Positions 17,405 through 31,492 of a stretch of 33,380 nucleotides of DNA are shown one piece after another (position 1 is the stretch's first letter; every line of letters starts with the position of its first letter). Under the pieces are notes generated by a model. That model made no database searches, was not told the DNA's origin, and worked only from the letters and a program-made list of their open reading frames with translations. The DNA comes from Tissierellia bacterium (lineage in GTDB: Bacteria > Bacillota > Clostridia > Tissierellales > Peptoniphilaceae), in contig JAAYFG010000092.1 of NCBI GenBank assembly GCA_012728335.1, positions 1-33,380 of the forward strand, in the 5' to 3' direction. The translations under genes and the position numbers were made by a program.

Positions 17405-18274
17405 TTATCCTAAATTGTGTTTTCGTTTTTCAGCTCTAATTGTGTTTCTAAGAAGTCCAGTTGTTGTTACTGGTCCTATTCCACCAAATACAGGTGTAAT
17501 AAATGGAACTTTCCCATTTACTTCGTCGAAATCCACGTCACCGCTCATATTTCCATCTTCATCCATACTCATACCAACGTCAATTACGATTGATTCTTCG
17601 GTAAAGTAACTGGAGTCAAACATCTTGGCATTGCCAGTCGCACATACGACAATATCAGCATTTCTACTGTATTTCTTAATTTTCTCAGGTTCTGTAGAAG
17701 TATGACATATCGTTACAGTCGCATTGTATTCCAATAGCATCATTGAAAGTGGCTTACCTACTACTAACGATCTGTTGATTACACATACATTTTGCCCTGC
17801 CATTTGGATATCATAATATTTTAAAAGCTCTATTACTGCCCAAGGAGTACAAGGCGTAAGACCACTTAAATCACCTTCAAAAATCTTTCCTAGATTTCTA
17901 GAATTTAGACAGTCTACATCTTTTTCTTCAGCTATGGTGTTATATATTTCCTTAGGTTTAAAATGTTTAGGAAAAGGTCTAAATAGCAATATTCCAGATA
18001 CACTTTCATCATTATTCAATCTATTTAGATTTTCAACATACTCTTCATGACTCACATTTTCATCAAGAACATCTATACAATAGTCTAGTCCTATTTTATC
18101 AGCATTTTTTGTGATTCCTCTTTCATATGCTAAATCTGAAGGATCTTCTCCTATTCTAAGGATTGCTAGTTTAGGATATATTCCGATTTTGCTAAGTTCA
18201 ATGAGTTCTTTTTTTAATTCATCTTTAATCTTATTTGCAACAGTCGTTCCTTTCAAAACTATAGTTTCAACCAT
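17405..18274 (-). CDS. folD: FolD-type methylenetetrahydrofolate dehydrogenase, cyclohydrolase site altered
   Basis: FolD normally oxidises 5,10-methylene-THF to methenyl-THF and then hydrolyses it to 10-formyl-THF. The 289-residue protein aligns without gaps through the key N-terminal segments of E. coli FolD: Tyr50 and Asp121 (in KDVDC) are kept. However, the catalytic lysine is replaced by Ile54 (YERGITK instead of YVxxKxK) and the conserved glutamine by Phe98 (GILLFRPFP instead of GILVQLPLP). PCTPWAV replaces PCTPRG, NRSLVVGKP replaces the usual G-S-x-IVG loop, and PVFGGIGPVT replaces PVPGGVGPMT. Dehydrogenase function is plausible; cyclohydrolase activity is doubtful. It ends the mrp operon. 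The ATG is conventional. Confidence 0.85.
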   Translation of the reverse strand: MVETIVLKGTTVANKIKDELKKELIELSKIGIYPKLAILRIGEDPSDLAYERGITKNADKIGLDYCIDVLDENVSHEEYVENLNRLNNDESVSGILLFRPFPKHFKPKEIYNTIAEEKDVDCLNSRNLGKIFEGDLSGLTPCTPWAVIELLKYYDIQMAGQNVCVINRSLVVGKPLSMMLLEYNATVTICHTSTEPEKIKKYSRNADIVVCATGNAKMFDSSYFTEESIVIDVGMSMDEDGNMSGDVDFDEVNGKVPFITPVFGGIGPVTTTGLLRNTIRAEKRKHNLG

Positions 18275-19567: not shown

Positions 19568-22500
19568 TTATCTCTTATTAAGTTCCATACCTGTATCTAT
19601 TCCATTGATGTCATAATTCTCTAATTCTTCAGTACATCTTATAATATCAACAGCTAATGTTTCTTCTTTAATAAAGTCTAAATGCTTGTCTAGCGCATTA
19701 TGAACTTCATCGCTAGTATTGTATTTGATATCTATATTATCAAGTACTTCATATCCATTTTGTTTTCTGATTTGTTGTACTTTTGATATAAACTCTCTTA
19801 CATAACCTTCTTCAATTAAAGTGTCTGTCAGATGAGTATCAAGGATAATGAACACATTGTTTTCCATTGTAACGTCAAATCCATCTTTAGCAGAAATATT
19901 TGTCAATACGTACTCAGGCTTAATCTCTGTTTCTTCACCATTTAATACCATCATTTTACTTCCATTTTCTTCTAATTCAGAAATAAAATCTTTTGCATCT
20001 ACTTCTTGCAGACTTTTGCCAAACTCTTTTATCTTAGGTCCTAGTATTCTACCAGCTTCTTTGAAATTAGGTTTTAATGAGTAGTCCATAAATTTACTTA
20101 AATCGTCTTCGAATTTAACTTCTTTTACATTAAGCTCCTCTTTGATTAACTCTGTTAAATCACCTATTATTTCTTTGTATTTTCCATCGATTACAACTTC
20201 TGAAAGAGGTTGTCTTACTTTAATTTGAGCATTTTCTCTAGAAGCTCTTCCCAGTCCAACTAGACTTCTAACCAAATCCATCTTTTCTTCCAGTTTTTCA
20301 TCTACTAATGTCTCTTCCACATCTGGGTAGAACTCTATATGCACTGTAATTCCACCTGTTAGCTTTCTAAACAGATCTTCAGCAATGAAAGGTGCAAACG
20401 GTGCAATAAGTTTACTAACGCCTACTAGCACTTCGTAGGTCGTATTATAAACTGCTTGCTTATCTTCATCTTGCTCAGTTTTCCAAAATCTTCTTCTACA
20501 CCTTCTTATATACCAATTCGAAAAGTCTTCTATTACAAAGTTTTGGATATTTCTAACTGCTCTAGTCACTTCAAATATTTCCATATCCTCAGTTACTGAT
20601 TTTACTAAATTATTATATTTAGAAAGAATCCATCTATCAATTTCTGGTCTATCTTCATAATTCACATGGAATCTATTTGGATCTACACCATCTGTATTTG
20701 CATATAGAGAGAAGAAATTATATATATTCTTAATCGTTCTAAAGAACTTAGACTCTACTTCTCTAACTCCATCTAAATCAAATTTAGTAGGTGTCCATGG
20801 TGGAGATACATATAGTAAATACCATCTTATTACATCTGCTCCATATTCATCAAATAAGTCAAAAGGACTTACTGTGTTACCTCTTGATTTAGACATCTTC
20901 TTTCCTTCTTTGTCTAAAATAAGATCATTTACCAATACATTTTTATATGGTGCTTTTCCTGTTAGATAAGTTGAAATAGCAATTAAGCTGTAAAACCATC
21001 CTCTAGTCTGGTCTATCCCCTCATTTATGAAATCTGCTGGGAATACCTTATCGAAAATATCTTCATTTTCAAATGGATAGTGTATTTGAGCAAATGGCAT
21101 TGCACCGCTGTCAAACCACACGTCTATTACTTCTTTTTCCCTTGTCATTTGTCCACCACAACTTCCACAAGTTAAGTGAACATCGTCTACATAAGGTCTA
21201 TGAAGTTCTATAGAATCATCAATATCCTCAACACTTCTATCTATTAATTCAGCTCTTGAGCCTACGCTTTCGATATGATTACAATCATCACATTTCCATA
21301 CTGGAAGTGGAGTTCCCCAGTATCTACTTCTAGAAATTGCCCAGTCATTAAGATTTTCTAACCAGTTTCCAAATCTCTTTTCTCCAACAAAATCTGGAAA
21401 CCAATTTACACCATTGTTGTTTTCTATTAGTTTTTCTTTAAATCTCGTCACTTCAATGTACCAAGATGGTTTAGCATAGTAGATAAGCGGTGTATCACAT
21501 CTCCAACAGTGAGGATAATTATGTTCCACTTTCTGTTTTCTAAACATCTTTCCATTTTCGTATAACCAAGATATTATCTCTGAATCAGCATCCATTACAA
21601 ACATGCCTTCCCATGGAGTTGCAGTAAAAGTACCGTCTTCAGCTACTGGATTAATAACTGGTAAATCGTAGTTTTGTCCAGTTTTATAGTCATCTTCACC
21701 AAAAGCGGTAGCTGTATGAACTATACCTGTACCGTCAGTAGTTGTTACATAGTCTGCACACGTAACATAAAAAGCTTTTTTATCTGGCTCTATGAAAGGT
21801 AATAATTGCTCATATTCAATATTTTCAAGAGCTTTCCCCTTCATTTCTTCTAATACTTCGTATTCACCTTGTAATACAGTATCAGCTAAATCTTTCGCTA
21901 AATAATATACTTCGTCTTTAAATTTAACCTTTATATAATTAACTTCTGGATTTACAGTTAACGATACGTTAGACGGTAACGTCCAAGGAGTAGTCGTCCA
22001 AGCTAAGAAATATTCATCCTTATCTTTAAGTTTGAATTTTACATATACCGTTTCAGTTTTAATTTCTTTATATCCTTGGGCCACTTCGTGAGAGGCAAGA
22101 CCTGTACCACATCTTGGACAATAAGGTAAAATCTTATGTCCTTCGTACAGTAAACCATCTTTAAACATCTTGTCTAGTATCCACCAAACAGTTTCAATAT
22201 AATCATTTTCAAGTGTAACATATGGATTATCTAAATCAATTAGATATGCCATTCTTTCAGTCATTTCACGCCATTCTTTTTCGTATTCAAAAACCGAGTG
22301 TCTACACTCTTCATTAAATTCTTTTATTCCAAACTTTTCAATGTCTTTCTTATTGTGAAGTCCCAATCTCTTTTCAACTTCAATTTCAACTGGAAGCCCA
22401 TGAGTGTCCCATCCAGCTTTACGTTTAACTTGGTAACCTTTCATAGTCTTATATCTACATGTCATATCTTTCAGCGTACGCGACATTACATGGTGAATTC

Positions 22501-22666
22501 CAGGTCTACCATTAGCTGTTGGAGGACCTTCATAAAAATTATATCTAAAGCTTTCATCTCTAGTATCAATAGATAATTTAAGAAGATCTATTTCATTCCA
22601 ATATTTCGAAATCTCTTGTTCATTTTCTTTTACTGACTTACTCGAAAGTGATTCAAATTTTTTCAA
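19568..22666 (-). CDS. ileS: Isoleucyl-tRNA synthetase, long (type 2, eukaryote-like) form
   Basis: IleRS charges tRNA-Ile and edits mischarged valine. The 1032-residue protein has GPPTANGRPGIHHVM (HIGH-type signature, about 47-61), the CP1 editing insertion (about 190-400), GWDTHGLPVE, and KMSKSRGN near 590; the C-terminal extension is long and lacks the zinc finger of short bacterial IleRS. This length and motif set mark the type 2 family shared with eukaryotes and many Clostridia, which is generally insensitive to mupirocin. The start is TTG at 22666, with AGGAG 11 bases upstream. A T-box leader precedes it. Confidence 0.95.
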   Translation of the reverse strand: MKKFESLSSKSVKENEQEISKYWNEIDLLKLSIDTRDESFRYNFYEGPPTANGRPGIHHVMSRTLKDMTCRYKTMKGYQVKRKAGWDTHGLPVEIEVEKRLGLHNKKDIEKFGIKEFNEECRHSVFEYEKEWREMTERMAYLIDLDNPYVTLENDYIETVWWILDKMFKDGLLYEGHKILPYCPRCGTGLASHEVAQGYKEIKTETVYVKFKLKDKDEYFLAWTTTPWTLPSNVSLTVNPEVNYIKVKFKDEVYYLAKDLADTVLQGEYEVLEEMKGKALENIEYEQLLPFIEPDKKAFYVTCADYVTTTDGTGIVHTATAFGEDDYKTGQNYDLPVINPVAEDGTFTATPWEGMFVMDADSEIISWLYENGKMFRKQKVEHNYPHCWRCDTPLIYYAKPSWYIEVTRFKEKLIENNNGVNWFPDFVGEKRFGNWLENLNDWAISRSRYWGTPLPVWKCDDCNHIESVGSRAELIDRSVEDIDDSIELHRPYVDDVHLTCGSCGGQMTREKEVIDVWFDSGAMPFAQIHYPFENEDIFDKVFPADFINEGIDQTRGWFYSLIAISTYLTGKAPYKNVLVNDLILDKEGKKMSKSRGNTVSPFDLFDEYGADVIRWYLLYVSPPWTPTKFDLDGVREVESKFFRTIKNIYNFFSLYANTDGVDPNRFHVNYEDRPEIDRWILSKYNNLVKSVTEDMEIFEVTRAVRNIQNFVIEDFSNWYIRRCRRRFWKTEQDEDKQAVYNTTYEVLVGVSKLIAPFAPFIAEDLFRKLTGGITVHIEFYPDVEETLVDEKLEEKMDLVRSLVGLGRASRENAQIKVRQPLSEVVIDGKYKEIIGDLTELIKEELNVKEVKFEDDLSKFMDYSLKPNFKEAGRILGPKIKEFGKSLQEVDAKDFISELEENGSKMMVLNGEETEIKPEYVLTNISAKDGFDVTMENNVFIILDTHLTDTLIEEGYVREFISKVQQIRKQNGYEVLDNIDIKYNTSDEVHNALDKHLDFIKEETLAVDIIRCTEELENYDINGIDTGMELNKR

Positions 22667-26494: not shown

Positions 26495-29400
26495 CTATTT
26501 TTTGAAATAATCTACACCAGATTGTATTATTGGTTGTATTTCTACACTAGGAATATTTTTATAGATTCCTTCGTCAACTCTTTCTGAGTGACCCATCTTA
26601 CCTAAAATCTTTCCATCAGGACTTATAAGACCTTCTATTGCATATGCAGCACCATTAGGATAGTCTACATAAGTAAATGCAATCTGTTCGTTTTCTGAAA
26701 GGATTTTATAGGTTTCTTCGTTACATACTACTCTACCTTCTCCATGTGATATAGGAACTATGTGTTCGTCACCTTCGTTTAGAAGGGACAACCAAGGAGA
26801 ATTGTTTGTCATAGCTTTTGTATTAACTAAAGTAGCTATATGTCTTTGCGCATTATTAGCAGTAATAGTTGCAGAGTTTTCATCTAATTGGGAAATTTCA
26901 CCAAAAGGAAGTAATCCAGTTTTAATCAATGCTTGGAATCCATTACAAATACCAAGTATTAAACCGTCATTTTCATTTCTCATATAGTCTATTGCCTCTG
27001 ATACTTTAGCATTTCTAATGACATTGGCAATGAATTTACCTGATCCGTCTGGTTCATCTCCTAAACTGAATCCACCAGGGAATACTAGAATTTGAGATTC
27101 TTTAATTGCCTCTGCCAACTCTTCTACAGAGTTTTCTATATCTTTAACTGTAAGATTTTTAAATACTAATATTCTAGTTTTAGCTCCTGCTTTTTCAAAA
27201 GCGTCTGCAGTATCCCATTCACAGTTTGTTCCAGGGAATACTGGAATTAAAACTTTTACTTCGTTCACTGGTTTGCTACTCTTTAAGTTTCTATTAGCTT
27301 TTCCAGTATTCTTAGCAACTTCGCCTTCATATTTAATTCTTGGTGGATATACTTTATCAAGAGTATCTCTGTATCCAGGAAGTAATTCCTCAACATCAAG
27401 TTTAACTTCGTTTACTATCAGTTCACTACCACCAGAAGAACCAATATTAGTGATTCCATTTACATCTTCTTTGTATTCAACAATAAATGATCCATATTTT
27501 GCATTATATAAATCGCTTAACTCTACATTAAATCCAATGTCATTTCCCATTGCCATTTCAAATAGTGATGGAAGTGTACCTTTGCTAGTGATAGCATATG
27601 CCGATACAATATTTCCACTTTGTATGTTTTTATGGATAAGTTTTAAGCTAGTTTTAAACTCTTCTACGTCCAATATCTGATTTTCTTTTATTTCAGTTTC
27701 AATTAAACCTAATTTATATCCACCCTTTAGTTCAGGGCTAGTTACATCTTTTTTATCTACTGTAGTAATAGCAAATGATATTAGTGTAGGAGGCACATTT
27801 AACTCATTAAACGTTCCTGACATCGAGTCTTTTCCTCCAATTGGTGGAATATTCAGTGCTTTTGTTATATTGTATGCACCTAATAACGATTTTAAAGGCT
27901 TAGACCAAAGTCCAGCATCTTCTCCCATTTTCTCAAAGTATTCTTGGAAAGTAAGTCTAGCATTTAATGCATTCGCACCTGATGCTGCCAATTTAGTTAG
28001 AGATTCAACCACAGCGTAGTATCCACCTAAAAACTGACTTTGTTCTGAAAGGTATGGACTAAAACCATATGCCATAGAACTTGCAGTATTAGCTTTTCCT
28101 TTTAGACTTGGAAGAGCTGCAACCATGCTTTGCGTAGGAGTAATTTGATTTTTTCCACCCATTGGAACTAAAATTGTATTTTTACCTACAGTTGCATCAA
28201 ATTTTTCTAATAAATTATGCTTACTTGCAATATTTATATCTGATAATCTCTCTCCTAAGAAGTCTACTCCTCTTCCATCATACATATTAAAGAAGTCTAC
28301 TTTATCTTCATTTAGTACTTTTATTGATTGATATCTATCTGCACCTGACGAATCAAGGAATTCACTTTCTAAATCAAGAATTACTATATCATCAAGTAAC
28401 ATAACTATACGTTTTGTATCTGTAACTTTTGCAACTTCTGTAACTTCCACATTTTCTTCTGCGCAGAATGATTTAAATCTTTCAACATCATCTTTAGCAA
28501 CTACTGCTGCCATTCTCTCTTGAGATTCTGAAATTGCTATTTCTTTAGGAGTTAATCCTTTGTATTTTAGCGGAACTCTATCTAAATGAATTTCTAGCGA
28601 ATCAGCTAGTTCACCTATTGCTACTGAAACTCCGCCTGCTCCAAAGTCATTACACTTTTTAATCATTTTCGCAACTTCTTCATTTCTGAACAGTCTTTGA
28701 ATTTTTCTTTCAGTTGGTGCATTTCCTTTTTGAACTTCTGCTGAAGCATCTATTATAGATTTTTCATCATGCTCTTTAGATGAGCCTGTTGCTCCACCTA
28801 CGCCATCACGCCCAGTTCTACCACCTATTAAAAGAATTACATCTCCTGCTTCTGGCTGCAATCTCTTAACATTTTCAAGCGGTGCTGCCCCTACAACTGC
28901 TCCAACTTCCATTCTCTTAGCTTTGTATCCTTCATGGTAAATCTCGTCAACTAGGCCTGTTGTAAGCCCAATTTGATTACCATATGAACTATATCCGTCT
29001 GCTGCTCCTTGAGCTATTTTAATTTGTGGTAATTTGCCCTCTATCGTTTCACTTATATCTTCAAGTGGGTTCGCACCACCGATTACTCTCATCGCTTGGT
29101 ATACATAAGCTCTTCCACTAAGCGGGTCTCTAATTGCACCACCTAAACATGTAGAAGCTCCCCCAAAAGGTTCAATTTCAGTTGGATGATTATGAGTTTC
29201 ATTTTTAAACATCAATAGGTATTCTTCTTCAACTAGTTCATTAGTTTCATTATCAACTAATTCAACCATAACTTTTACTGAACAAGCATTGATCTCATCA
29301 GAAACTTCAACATCTGATAAAACTCCTTTAGTTCTCATATATCTTTGAACTATAGTACCTAAATCCATAAGTGTTACTGGTTTTGTCCTATTGATTTCTT

Positions 29401-31429
29401 CTCTAGCATTTAGATAGTCATCAAAAGCTTCTTTAATTAATTTATCAATAGCTGACTTAGCTTCTCCAAATTCAATATCAAGTATTGTATTGAAAGTTGT
29501 ATGTCTACAGTGATCTGACCAATAAGTATCCAATACCGCTATTTCAGTTTCATTAGGATCTCTATCTATAGATTTATAATGGTTTTGAACGAATACTAAA
29601 TCATCTAAGGACATAGCAAGTCCTAAATCATTCATGAATTCAACTAATTCAGTTTCATCGAACTCTCTAAATCCATCATATATTAAATTGTCCATATTCA
29701 TTTTAGAATCTTCGATTAAAGTAGAAGGAATTCCCAGTAATTCTCCTTTTTGTTGATCTACTGGATTTATCATATACTCTTCTATTTTTACTAAATCAGC
29801 ATCAGAAAGTTCACCTTCAAAAGAGTAAACTTTAGCACAACTTGCTGCAATATCATCTTTCTCAATAGAAACTGCAACAGTATCTATAACGCCTTGTTCT
29901 CTTTGGTCAAATTGTCCAGCTCTATACTGTACAACTAGAGGATTTACTAATTCTGATTGTAATTTATAAACTGCTTCATCTTTATATAAAATATCTATAG
30001 GTCTTTCACATAAAATTGTCTCTGAAATTATTTCTGCTTCTTCTGGAGTAATATTTTCTATATCATATCTAACTAATGGTCTAACATTATTTAATTTTAA
30101 GCCTAATGCTTCATTAAGCTCGTTCAACAAGTTTTTAGCTTCATTGTTAAAGCCTTCTTTTTTCTCAACATAGAATCTTTGAACTTTAGGTCCTATATCT
30201 CTTCTGAATACTTTTGAGTCAAATTTCACTTTTTCAACATCCTTATATACATTTTCAAACGCTTCTTCAAAAGTGTCTGCAACATTAGTTATACTCAATA
30301 CTCTTCCACCATTTGTAACAACTTTCCCATCTGAAAGTGTAGTTCCAGCATGGAAGACATTCGAATCCTTAACGTCTTTTAAACCAGTTATTTCGATTCC
30401 TTTTTCATAAGCTTCAGGATATCCTTTAGAAGCTAAAACTACAGTAATTACTTCCTTATCATTATATTTCACTTCAATTTCTGAAAGTTTATCATCTGCA
30501 ACTGCTTGAAGTATATCTAAAAGATTTGTATCTATTCTCTGTAATATAGTTTGAGTTTCAGGATCCCCAAACCTTACATTGTATTCAAGTACATTTATAC
30601 CTTTAGAGCCTATCATAAGCCCAATAAATATAATTCCTCTAAAATCTACCCCATCTTTTTTTATTCCTTCAAAGAAAGGATTAACTACTAATTTTTCTAT
30701 TTCATCATAATATACATCTGCTTGAATATTAGGACTATAGCTTCCCATTCCGCCTGTGTTTAGTCCTCTTTCACCTTCGTATATTTTCTTATGATCTTTT
30801 GCAGTAGGCATAGGTACGATTTTATGATTGTCCATAAAGCATAGAAGACTCATTTCAAATCCGTCTAGAAATTCTTCTATTACCATTCTAGATTCACCAT
30901 ATCTGTCATTTTCTAATACATCAGCACAGAATGACTCTATTTCGCCATTAGTACTAGCTATATATACTCCTTTTCCAGCATTTAGCCCGTCTGCTTTCAA
31001 AACTACTTTACCGTCTTTCTTAAGAAGTTTTTTAGCAAACTCTATGGCTTCATCCAAAGAAACTGTTTCCAAATAATCAGCAGTTGGAATATTGTGTCTA
31101 ACACAGAATTCTTTTGAAAAAGCTTTACTCGCTTCTAGTCTTGCTGCTTCTTTTCTCGGTCCAAAAACCTTTAGTCCATTATCTTCAAATAAATCCACTA
31201 TTCCATTACAAAGTGGTTCTTCAGGACCTACTATAGTAAAATCAATATTGTTTTCTTTCGCAAAACTCAGTAATTTATCAAAATCATTTACACCAATTTC
31301 TAAATTTTTTCCCAGTTCTGATGTTCCTGCATTACCTGGAGCAAAAAATAATTCAACCTGATTATCTTTCACGATTGAACTTGCAATAGCATGTTCTCTA
31401 GCACCATTACCTACTACTAATATTTTCAT
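26495..31429 (-). CDS. PurD-PurL fusion: GAR synthetase plus FGAM synthase in one chain
   Basis: This single open frame of 1644 residues joins two purine enzymes. Residues 1-413 are a complete PurD (phosphoribosylamine--glycine ligase) with NGAREHA, VGPEEPL, KADGLNAGKGV, LNTGGMGSYSP, NVRFGDPETQ and the C-terminal FRRDIG. From about residue 415 (VQRFYVEKKEGFN) a full long-type PurL follows: DTYWSDHCRHTTF, NETHNHPTEIEPFGG, GGRTGRDGVGG, NDFGAGG, and a C-terminal glutaminase with FPGTNCEWD, FPGGFSLGDEPDG, the nucleophile in GICNGFQ and ISHGEG. Almost no linker separates them. PurD catalyses step 2 and PurL step 4 of purine synthesis, so they are not consecutive. I start at ATG 31429 with GGGAGGA upstream; an in-frame ATG at 31456 lacks such a site. 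Confidence 0.93.
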   Translation of the reverse strand: MKILVVGNGAREHAIASSIVKDNQVELFFAPGNAGTSELGKNLEIGVNDFDKLLSFAKENNIDFTIVGPEEPLCNGIVDLFEDNGLKVFGPRKEAARLEASKAFSKEFCVRHNIPTADYLETVSLDEAIEFAKKLLKKDGKVVLKADGLNAGKGVYIASTNGEIESFCADVLENDRYGESRMVIEEFLDGFEMSLLCFMDNHKIVPMPTAKDHKKIYEGERGLNTGGMGSYSPNIQADVYYDEIEKLVVNPFFEGIKKDGVDFRGIIFIGLMIGSKGINVLEYNVRFGDPETQTILQRIDTNLLDILQAVADDKLSEIEVKYNDKEVITVVLASKGYPEAYEKGIEITGLKDVKDSNVFHAGTTLSDGKVVTNGGRVLSITNVADTFEEAFENVYKDVEKVKFDSKVFRRDIGPKVQRFYVEKKEGFNNEAKNLLNELNEALGLKLNNVRPLVRYDIENITPEEAEIISETILCERPIDILYKDEAVYKLQSELVNPLVVQYRAGQFDQREQGVIDTVAVSIEKDDIAASCAKVYSFEGELSDADLVKIEEYMINPVDQQKGELLGIPSTLIEDSKMNMDNLIYDGFREFDETELVEFMNDLGLAMSLDDLVFVQNHYKSIDRDPNETEIAVLDTYWSDHCRHTTFNTILDIEFGEAKSAIDKLIKEAFDDYLNAREEINRTKPVTLMDLGTIVQRYMRTKGVLSDVEVSDEINACSVKVMVELVDNETNELVEEEYLLMFKNETHNHPTEIEPFGGASTCLGGAIRDPLSGRAYVYQAMRVIGGANPLEDISETIEGKLPQIKIAQGAADGYSSYGNQIGLTTGLVDEIYHEGYKAKRMEVGAVVGAAPLENVKRLQPEAGDVILLIGGRTGRDGVGGATGSSKEHDEKSIIDASAEVQKGNAPTERKIQRLFRNEEVAKMIKKCNDFGAGGVSVAIGELADSLEIHLDRVPLKYKGLTPKEIAISESQERMAAVVAKDDVERFKSFCAEENVEVTEVAKVTDTKRIVMLLDDIVILDLESEFLDSSGADRYQSIKVLNEDKVDFFNMYDGRGVDFLGERLSDINIASKHNLLEKFDATVGKNTILVPMGGKNQITPTQSMVAALPSLKGKANTASSMAYGFSPYLSEQSQFLGGYYAVVESLTKLAASGANALNARLTFQEYFEKMGEDAGLWSKPLKSLLGAYNITKALNIPPIGGKDSMSGTFNELNVPPTLISFAITTVDKKDVTSPELKGGYKLGLIETEIKENQILDVEEFKTSLKLIHKNIQSGNIVSAYAITSKGTLPSLFEMAMGNDIGFNVELSDLYNAKYGSFIVEYKEDVNGITNIGSSGGSELIVNEVKLDVEELLPGYRDTLDKVYPPRIKYEGEVAKNTGKANRNLKSSKPVNEVKVLIPVFPGTNCEWDTADAFEKAGAKTRILVFKNLTVKDIENSVEELAEAIKESQILVFPGGFSLGDEPDGSGKFIANVIRNAKVSEAIDYMRNENDGLILGICNGFQALIKTGLLPFGEISQLDENSATITANNAQRHIATLVNTKAMTNNSPWLSLLNEGDEHIVPISHGEGRVVCNEETYKILSENEQIAFTYVDYPNGAAYAIEGLISPDGKILGKMGHSERVDEGIYKNIPSVEIQPIIQSGVDYFKK

Positions 31430-31492
31430 AAAATCCTCCCTGATCAGTATATTCATAAATACTCGCTATTCCATAAGGCTTTACACTAATAA

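Follow-up and report, generated by a model that had tools for sequence, protein, structure and literature searches.

The yeast enzyme MTD1 is NAD-dependent and acts as a dehydrogenase only, whilst Clostridium perfringens FolD was reportedly found by Aluri et al. 2016 to be monofunctional, with the cyclohydrolase supplied by FchA. Monofunctional enzymes have also been described in Clostridium formicoaceticum and Acetobacterium woodii, and a bifunctional one in M. thermoacetica (PMC9124964). In the human bifunctional enzyme and its relatives, a lysine works with a glutamine to activate the substrate and may pass the proton of the cyclohydrolase step (PMC3368264). Mutation of the corresponding residues in Escherichia coli FolD left cyclohydrolase undetectable and about 19% of dehydrogenase activity (K54N), or about 1% and 8%, respectively (Q98H), and in the Q98H structure Leu40 is packed against Tyr50 (PMC5688156). 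The K54N mutant supports the premise of our first-pass annotation that the lysine is required for cyclohydrolase activity, and indicates that it is not absolutely needed by the dehydrogenase (PMC5688156). A FolD without both Lys54 and Gln98 is thus expected to be without cyclohydrolase activity.

The window FolD and its fold

The gene studied here lies in a 33,380-nucleotide stretch of DNA from a Tissierellia bacterium (contig JAAYFG010000092.1), hereafter the window. Residue numbers are those of E. coli FolD; the alignment is free of gaps through residue 121, so the two numberings coincide over this part.

17405..18274, minus strand: folD, methylenetetrahydrofolate dehydrogenase, predicted to be without cyclohydrolase activity (289 aa; open reading frame, PF00763 and PF02882)
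18155..18157, minus strand: Arg40 codon (Leu40 in E. coli), a subfamily hallmark near the Tyr50/Gln98 pocket
18125..18127, minus strand: Tyr50 codon, retained (alignment)
18113..18115, minus strand: Ile54 codon (atc), in place of catalytic Lys54
17981..17983, minus strand: Phe98 codon (ttt), in place of Gln98
17978..17980, minus strand: Arg99 codon (Leu99 in E. coli), frequent in the subfamily
17912..17914, minus strand: Asp121 codon, retained (alignment)

The gene starts with ATG, preceded immediately 5' by the ribosome-binding-site-like gtgggag, and both Pfam domains were matched well over their cut-offs (PF00763, 98.9 bits; PF02882, 179.8 bits). Its predicted model (mean pLDDT 94) aligned at full length with solved FolD/MTHFD structures, mostly at Z 36-39 and 31-38% identity, with the best matches to 6ape and 3p2o (Z 39.4, 283 residues, rmsd 1.6-1.8); none of the solved structures compared came from a close relative. 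The two domains, the whole fold, Tyr50 and Asp121 are shared with the bifunctional FolD/MTHFD1 enzymes of E. coli and Campylobacter jejuni (3p2o), whereas the window FolD differs from these in the replacement of Lys54 and Gln98 and in carrying Arg40, Arg99 and Glu51. The fold is also common to yeast MTD1 (1edz), a distant relative (26% identity, Z 30.3).

Alignment and codons bore out what had been read from the sequence at first pass, namely that Tyr50 and Asp121 are kept while Lys54 has become isoleucine and Gln98 phenylalanine. The altered loops are likewise real (PCTPWA against PCTPRG, NRS against GAS and PVFGG against PVPGG), and are partly atypical of the subfamily defined below, in which phenylalanine at residue 260 occurred in 2/175 sequences, the window FolD included. 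The enzyme also carries a two-residue insertion (CHTSTEPEKIKK; 17690-17710, minus strand, residues about 190-195) in the loop that bears Arg191 in E. coli and lies near the coenzyme. Of the sequences displayed, only the window FolD and that of locus L031 have this insertion.

Active-site signature of the subfamily

Comparison of 175 sequences of the window type with 61 canonical FolDs revealed a consistent set of differences. Lys54 and Gln98 were absent from all 175 subfamily members, so their loss in the window FolD is not a product of chance or sequencing error. Lysine occupied position 54 in none of the 175, which carried alanine, isoleucine, leucine, valine or methionine there, and position 98 was phenylalanine, leucine or methionine in 173; Tyr50 (174/175) and Asp121 (175/175) were retained. 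Arginine was found at position 40 in 158 sequences (serine in 11) and at position 99 in 133 (otherwise Q, M, S, K or L), whilst lysine, arginine or histidine at position 40 and a cation at position 99 were present in just 2% and 8% of the canonical FolDs, respectively. Glu51 was found in 152 of the 175. A compensating lysine, which if seen near the site in a structural model would have refuted the first-pass reading, was sought across the sequences of the subfamily; none was consistently gained near the site, Arg40 and Arg99 being gained instead.

Given that the E. coli K54N and Q98H enzymes lose most of their dehydrogenase activity, its retention in this subfamily must rest on the other changes. 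A speculative extension is that the active site has been rebuilt, with Arg40, Glu51, a small or aliphatic residue 54, Phe/Leu/Met98 and Arg99, such that hydride transfer without the Lys-Gln pair might constitute a second way of catalysing methylene-THF oxidation, one with no solved structure so far.

Folate genes in the same genome

The source assembly (2.06 Mb in 149 contigs, 98% complete, 4.4% contaminated), of which the window is contig C17, was searched for fchA, a second folD and fhs, as suggested in the first-pass annotation, which proposed that a separate cyclohydrolase such as FchA might be required. An fchA-type gene and fhs were both recovered; a second or canonical folD was not, the window gene being the single FolD match in this 98% complete genome. 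The FchA-family protein is present in one copy and matched PF04961 over its full length (212 bits). Its gene lies on contig C5 (2615-3256), behind parA-like and parB-like genes, as read from their translations, and one further open reading frame. FchA was its best NCBIfam model (201 bits, under the 275-bit cut-off), and among solved structures a methenyltetrahydrofolate cyclohydrolase scored highest (140.6 bits, against 106.8 for FTCD). Given the presence of ftcD in the genome, this protein may also, or mainly, be a formimino-THF cyclodeaminase.

Two fragments of fhs were located at the ends of contigs C85 and C114 (loci L248 and L249). That these are one gene split at contig ends was rejected on the basis of 13 mismatches across 381 overlapping bases; the 96.6% identity of this overlap implies either two fhs copies or a strain mixture in the assembly. 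On contig C85 the fhs fragment is immediately preceded by ftcD, which encodes glutamate formimidoyltransferase (locus L248, 4053-6073), an adjacency that suggests histidine degradation feeding the folate pool.

In the proposed route, FolD would use a pyridine nucleotide to interconvert 5,10-methylene-THF and 5,10-methenyl-THF, a separate FchA would hydrolyse methenyl-THF to 10-formyl-THF, and Fhs would link 10-formyl-THF to formate and ATP. Candidates for all three steps were found, so the path between methylene-THF and formate plus ATP is covered even with a one-step FolD. The predicted division of labour resembles that of A. woodii and C. formicoaceticum, compared here by description rather than by sequence (PMC9124964).

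Co-occurrence with FchA

Of 130 genomes from the family of the window organism, 121 yielded the FolD N-terminal domain and 129 yielded FchA. Genus g3 accounts for eight of the nine FolD misses. Its FolDs and FchAs (e.g. loci L069, L070 and L072-L076) are both very divergent, and some of the FolDs scored under the Pfam cut-off or escaped detection altogether. Lys54 and Gln98 were missing from all 70 aligned family FolDs, with Asp121 always retained and Tyr50 replaced by phenylalanine in one.

An evenly drawn sample of 196 genomes from the class encoded FolD in 183 and FchA in 70, and FolD match scores were bimodal, tracking FchA. Residues were read in 90 of these FolDs plus that of the window, comprising the 30 best-scoring, those from FchA genomes with listed coordinates, low-scoring ones from genomes without FchA, and others. 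In genomes without FchA, 55/56 FolDs retained both Lys54 and Gln98; the sole exception, G161, has a window-type FolD in a genome that is 76% complete. In genomes with FchA, Lys54 was absent from 30/35 FolDs, a count that leaves out about 30 further FchA genomes of the class. These 35 comprised 24 FolDs without both residues, six with Gln54 and Gln98 retained, and five that retain both residues. Four of these last five are explained: a second FolD of the window type (I54, F98) adjoins FchA in G133, the FchA-family gene adjoins FTCD in G195 and G293 and is thus probably a cyclodeaminase there, and the FchA-family match in G255 is weak (21 bits). G183, which has FchA and a canonical FolD only, is unaccounted for. 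The comparison with FchA-carrying Clostridia proposed at first pass therefore shows that loss of Lys54 co-occurs strongly with FchA across the class.

Searching genome contigs with the window FolD as a single query returned no relatives. With an alignment of the subfamily as query, at least 589 related stretches were obtained. Lys54 and Gln98 were absent in all of the best 80 of these, a figure that indicates breadth and not an unbiased rate, as the query was built from window-type sequences. An FchA open reading frame lay within 2.5 kb of FolD in 60 of the same 80. The best 80 included members of the genera Blautia, Robinsoniella, Pseudobutyrivibrio, Romboutsia, Sporomusa (S. ovata), Alkalibaculum and Caloramator, as well as bins labelled Synergistaceae, delta-proteobacteria, Spirochaetaceae and Coriobacteriia. 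The window FolD is thus an ordinary member of a very large, FchA-partnered FolD subfamily, and Lys54 is lost in nearly all of the FchA-carrying relatives sampled.

Phylogeny of FolD types

In a tree of 105 FolDs, the window type formed one side of a branch with SH-aLRT support of 99, and the Gln54 type formed another branch (SH-aLRT 99) beside the canonical clade. The Lys54 difference between the window subfamily and the canonical clade is a single change on this tree, and many independent losses of Lys54 were consequently rejected; as the tree is unrooted, gain and loss of the lysine are indistinguishable. The large counts above are therefore not independent events, few changes underlie the association with FchA, and a Fisher's p of 9e-18 overstates independence. 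C. perfringens, said to combine FolD, FchA and Fhs, would likewise have an FchA-reliant FolD, although probably of the other type, with Gln54 and Gln98 retained (family code f41) and in a separate clade, a placement made without its own sequence.

Predicted activity and alternative explanations

We consider the window FolD most likely to be a dehydrogenase only, with FchA performing the hydrolysis (probability about 0.88, judged from sequence). This is the main proposal of the first-pass annotation, and it is supported by the single FolD, the full-length FchA-family protein, fhs, the co-occurrence pattern and the published K54 mutants. From conservation, gene neighbourhood and the status of the enzyme as sole FolD, we infer that dehydrogenase activity is retained; we likewise infer the absence of cyclohydrolase activity, which way the flux runs and which coenzyme is used. 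A variant that we rate as improbable, though the most credible of the alternatives, also has FolD as a dehydrogenase only and makes the FchA-type protein a cyclodeaminase of histidine degradation, in which case 10-formyl-THF would arise mainly via Fhs and FolD would use methenyl-THF derived from formimino-THF. The position of ftcD next to fhs agrees with this, as does a lone FchA-family gene scoring under the NCBIfam FchA cut-off, yet among solved structures FchA, and not FTCD, is the nearest, and FchA accompanies window-type FolDs in genomes at large. This variant leaves the conclusion on FolD itself unchanged.

It is very unlikely that the enzyme is still bifunctional through another residue, such as Arg40 or Arg99, replacing Lys54 in the cyclohydrolase reaction. 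The frequency of both arginines in the subfamily (158/175 and 133/175), the rarity of cations at these positions in canonical FolDs and the proximity of residue 40 to Tyr50 in E. coli (PMC5688156) could be read in this way. However, both positions vary, no lysine is consistently gained near the site, and FchA, a near-constant companion of window-type FolDs, would be superfluous. Arginine is, moreover, a poor general base. Slightly less probable still is a protein with neither activity, or with another substrate and a different role, as might be supposed from several altered loops and from the change of both Lys54 and Gln98, either of which leaves only 8-19% of dehydrogenase activity when changed in E. 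coli (PMC5688156). Against this, the protein is the sole FolD of its genome and a recognisable FolD persists in 121/130 family genomes, Tyr50 and Asp121 are practically invariant, the fold matches solved FolDs throughout, and folD lies near fchA in 60 of the best 80 of at least 589 stretches. The hint of a different role at first pass is not needed; the reading of a dehydrogenase served by FchA fits every test run.

Annotation and implications

The best-matching NCBIfam models for the window FolD are all named bifunctional. The top one scored 260.8 bits where 423 are required, and the 25 highest-ranked models all fell short of their cut-offs. Comparative work on acetogens also labels such FolDs bifunctional (PMC10103890). 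The database name is probably wrong for the window FolD, and so the metabolic models built for many acetogens and gut bacteria probably assign the FchA step to FolD. Residues 54 and 98 separate stand-alone from FchA-accompanied FolDs with few exceptions in the class, and FolD inhibitors that bind Lys54, such as carolacton (PMC5688156), are predicted to fail on this subfamily. Monofunctional dehydrogenases with a separate cyclohydrolase are already known from anaerobes, so the gain is a modest one, comprising the residue signature and the correction to the 'bifunctional' naming; perhaps also worth passing on are the close agreement of this signature with FchA in the class and a rebuilt pocket that lacks a solved structure.

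Other genes in the window

A 1653-aa open reading frame at 26495-31456 (minus strand) combines PurD (residues 10-423, with the GARS N, A and C domains) with a PurL-type FGAM synthase (linker, AIRS_C and GATase_5), an apparent PurD-PurL fusion. An isoleucyl-tRNA synthetase, possibly one of the mupirocin-insensitive kind, is encoded at 19568-22666 (minus strand); it passed the general ileS model, and its top model was mupirocin-resistant MupA (1023 bits, under the cut-off of 1900).
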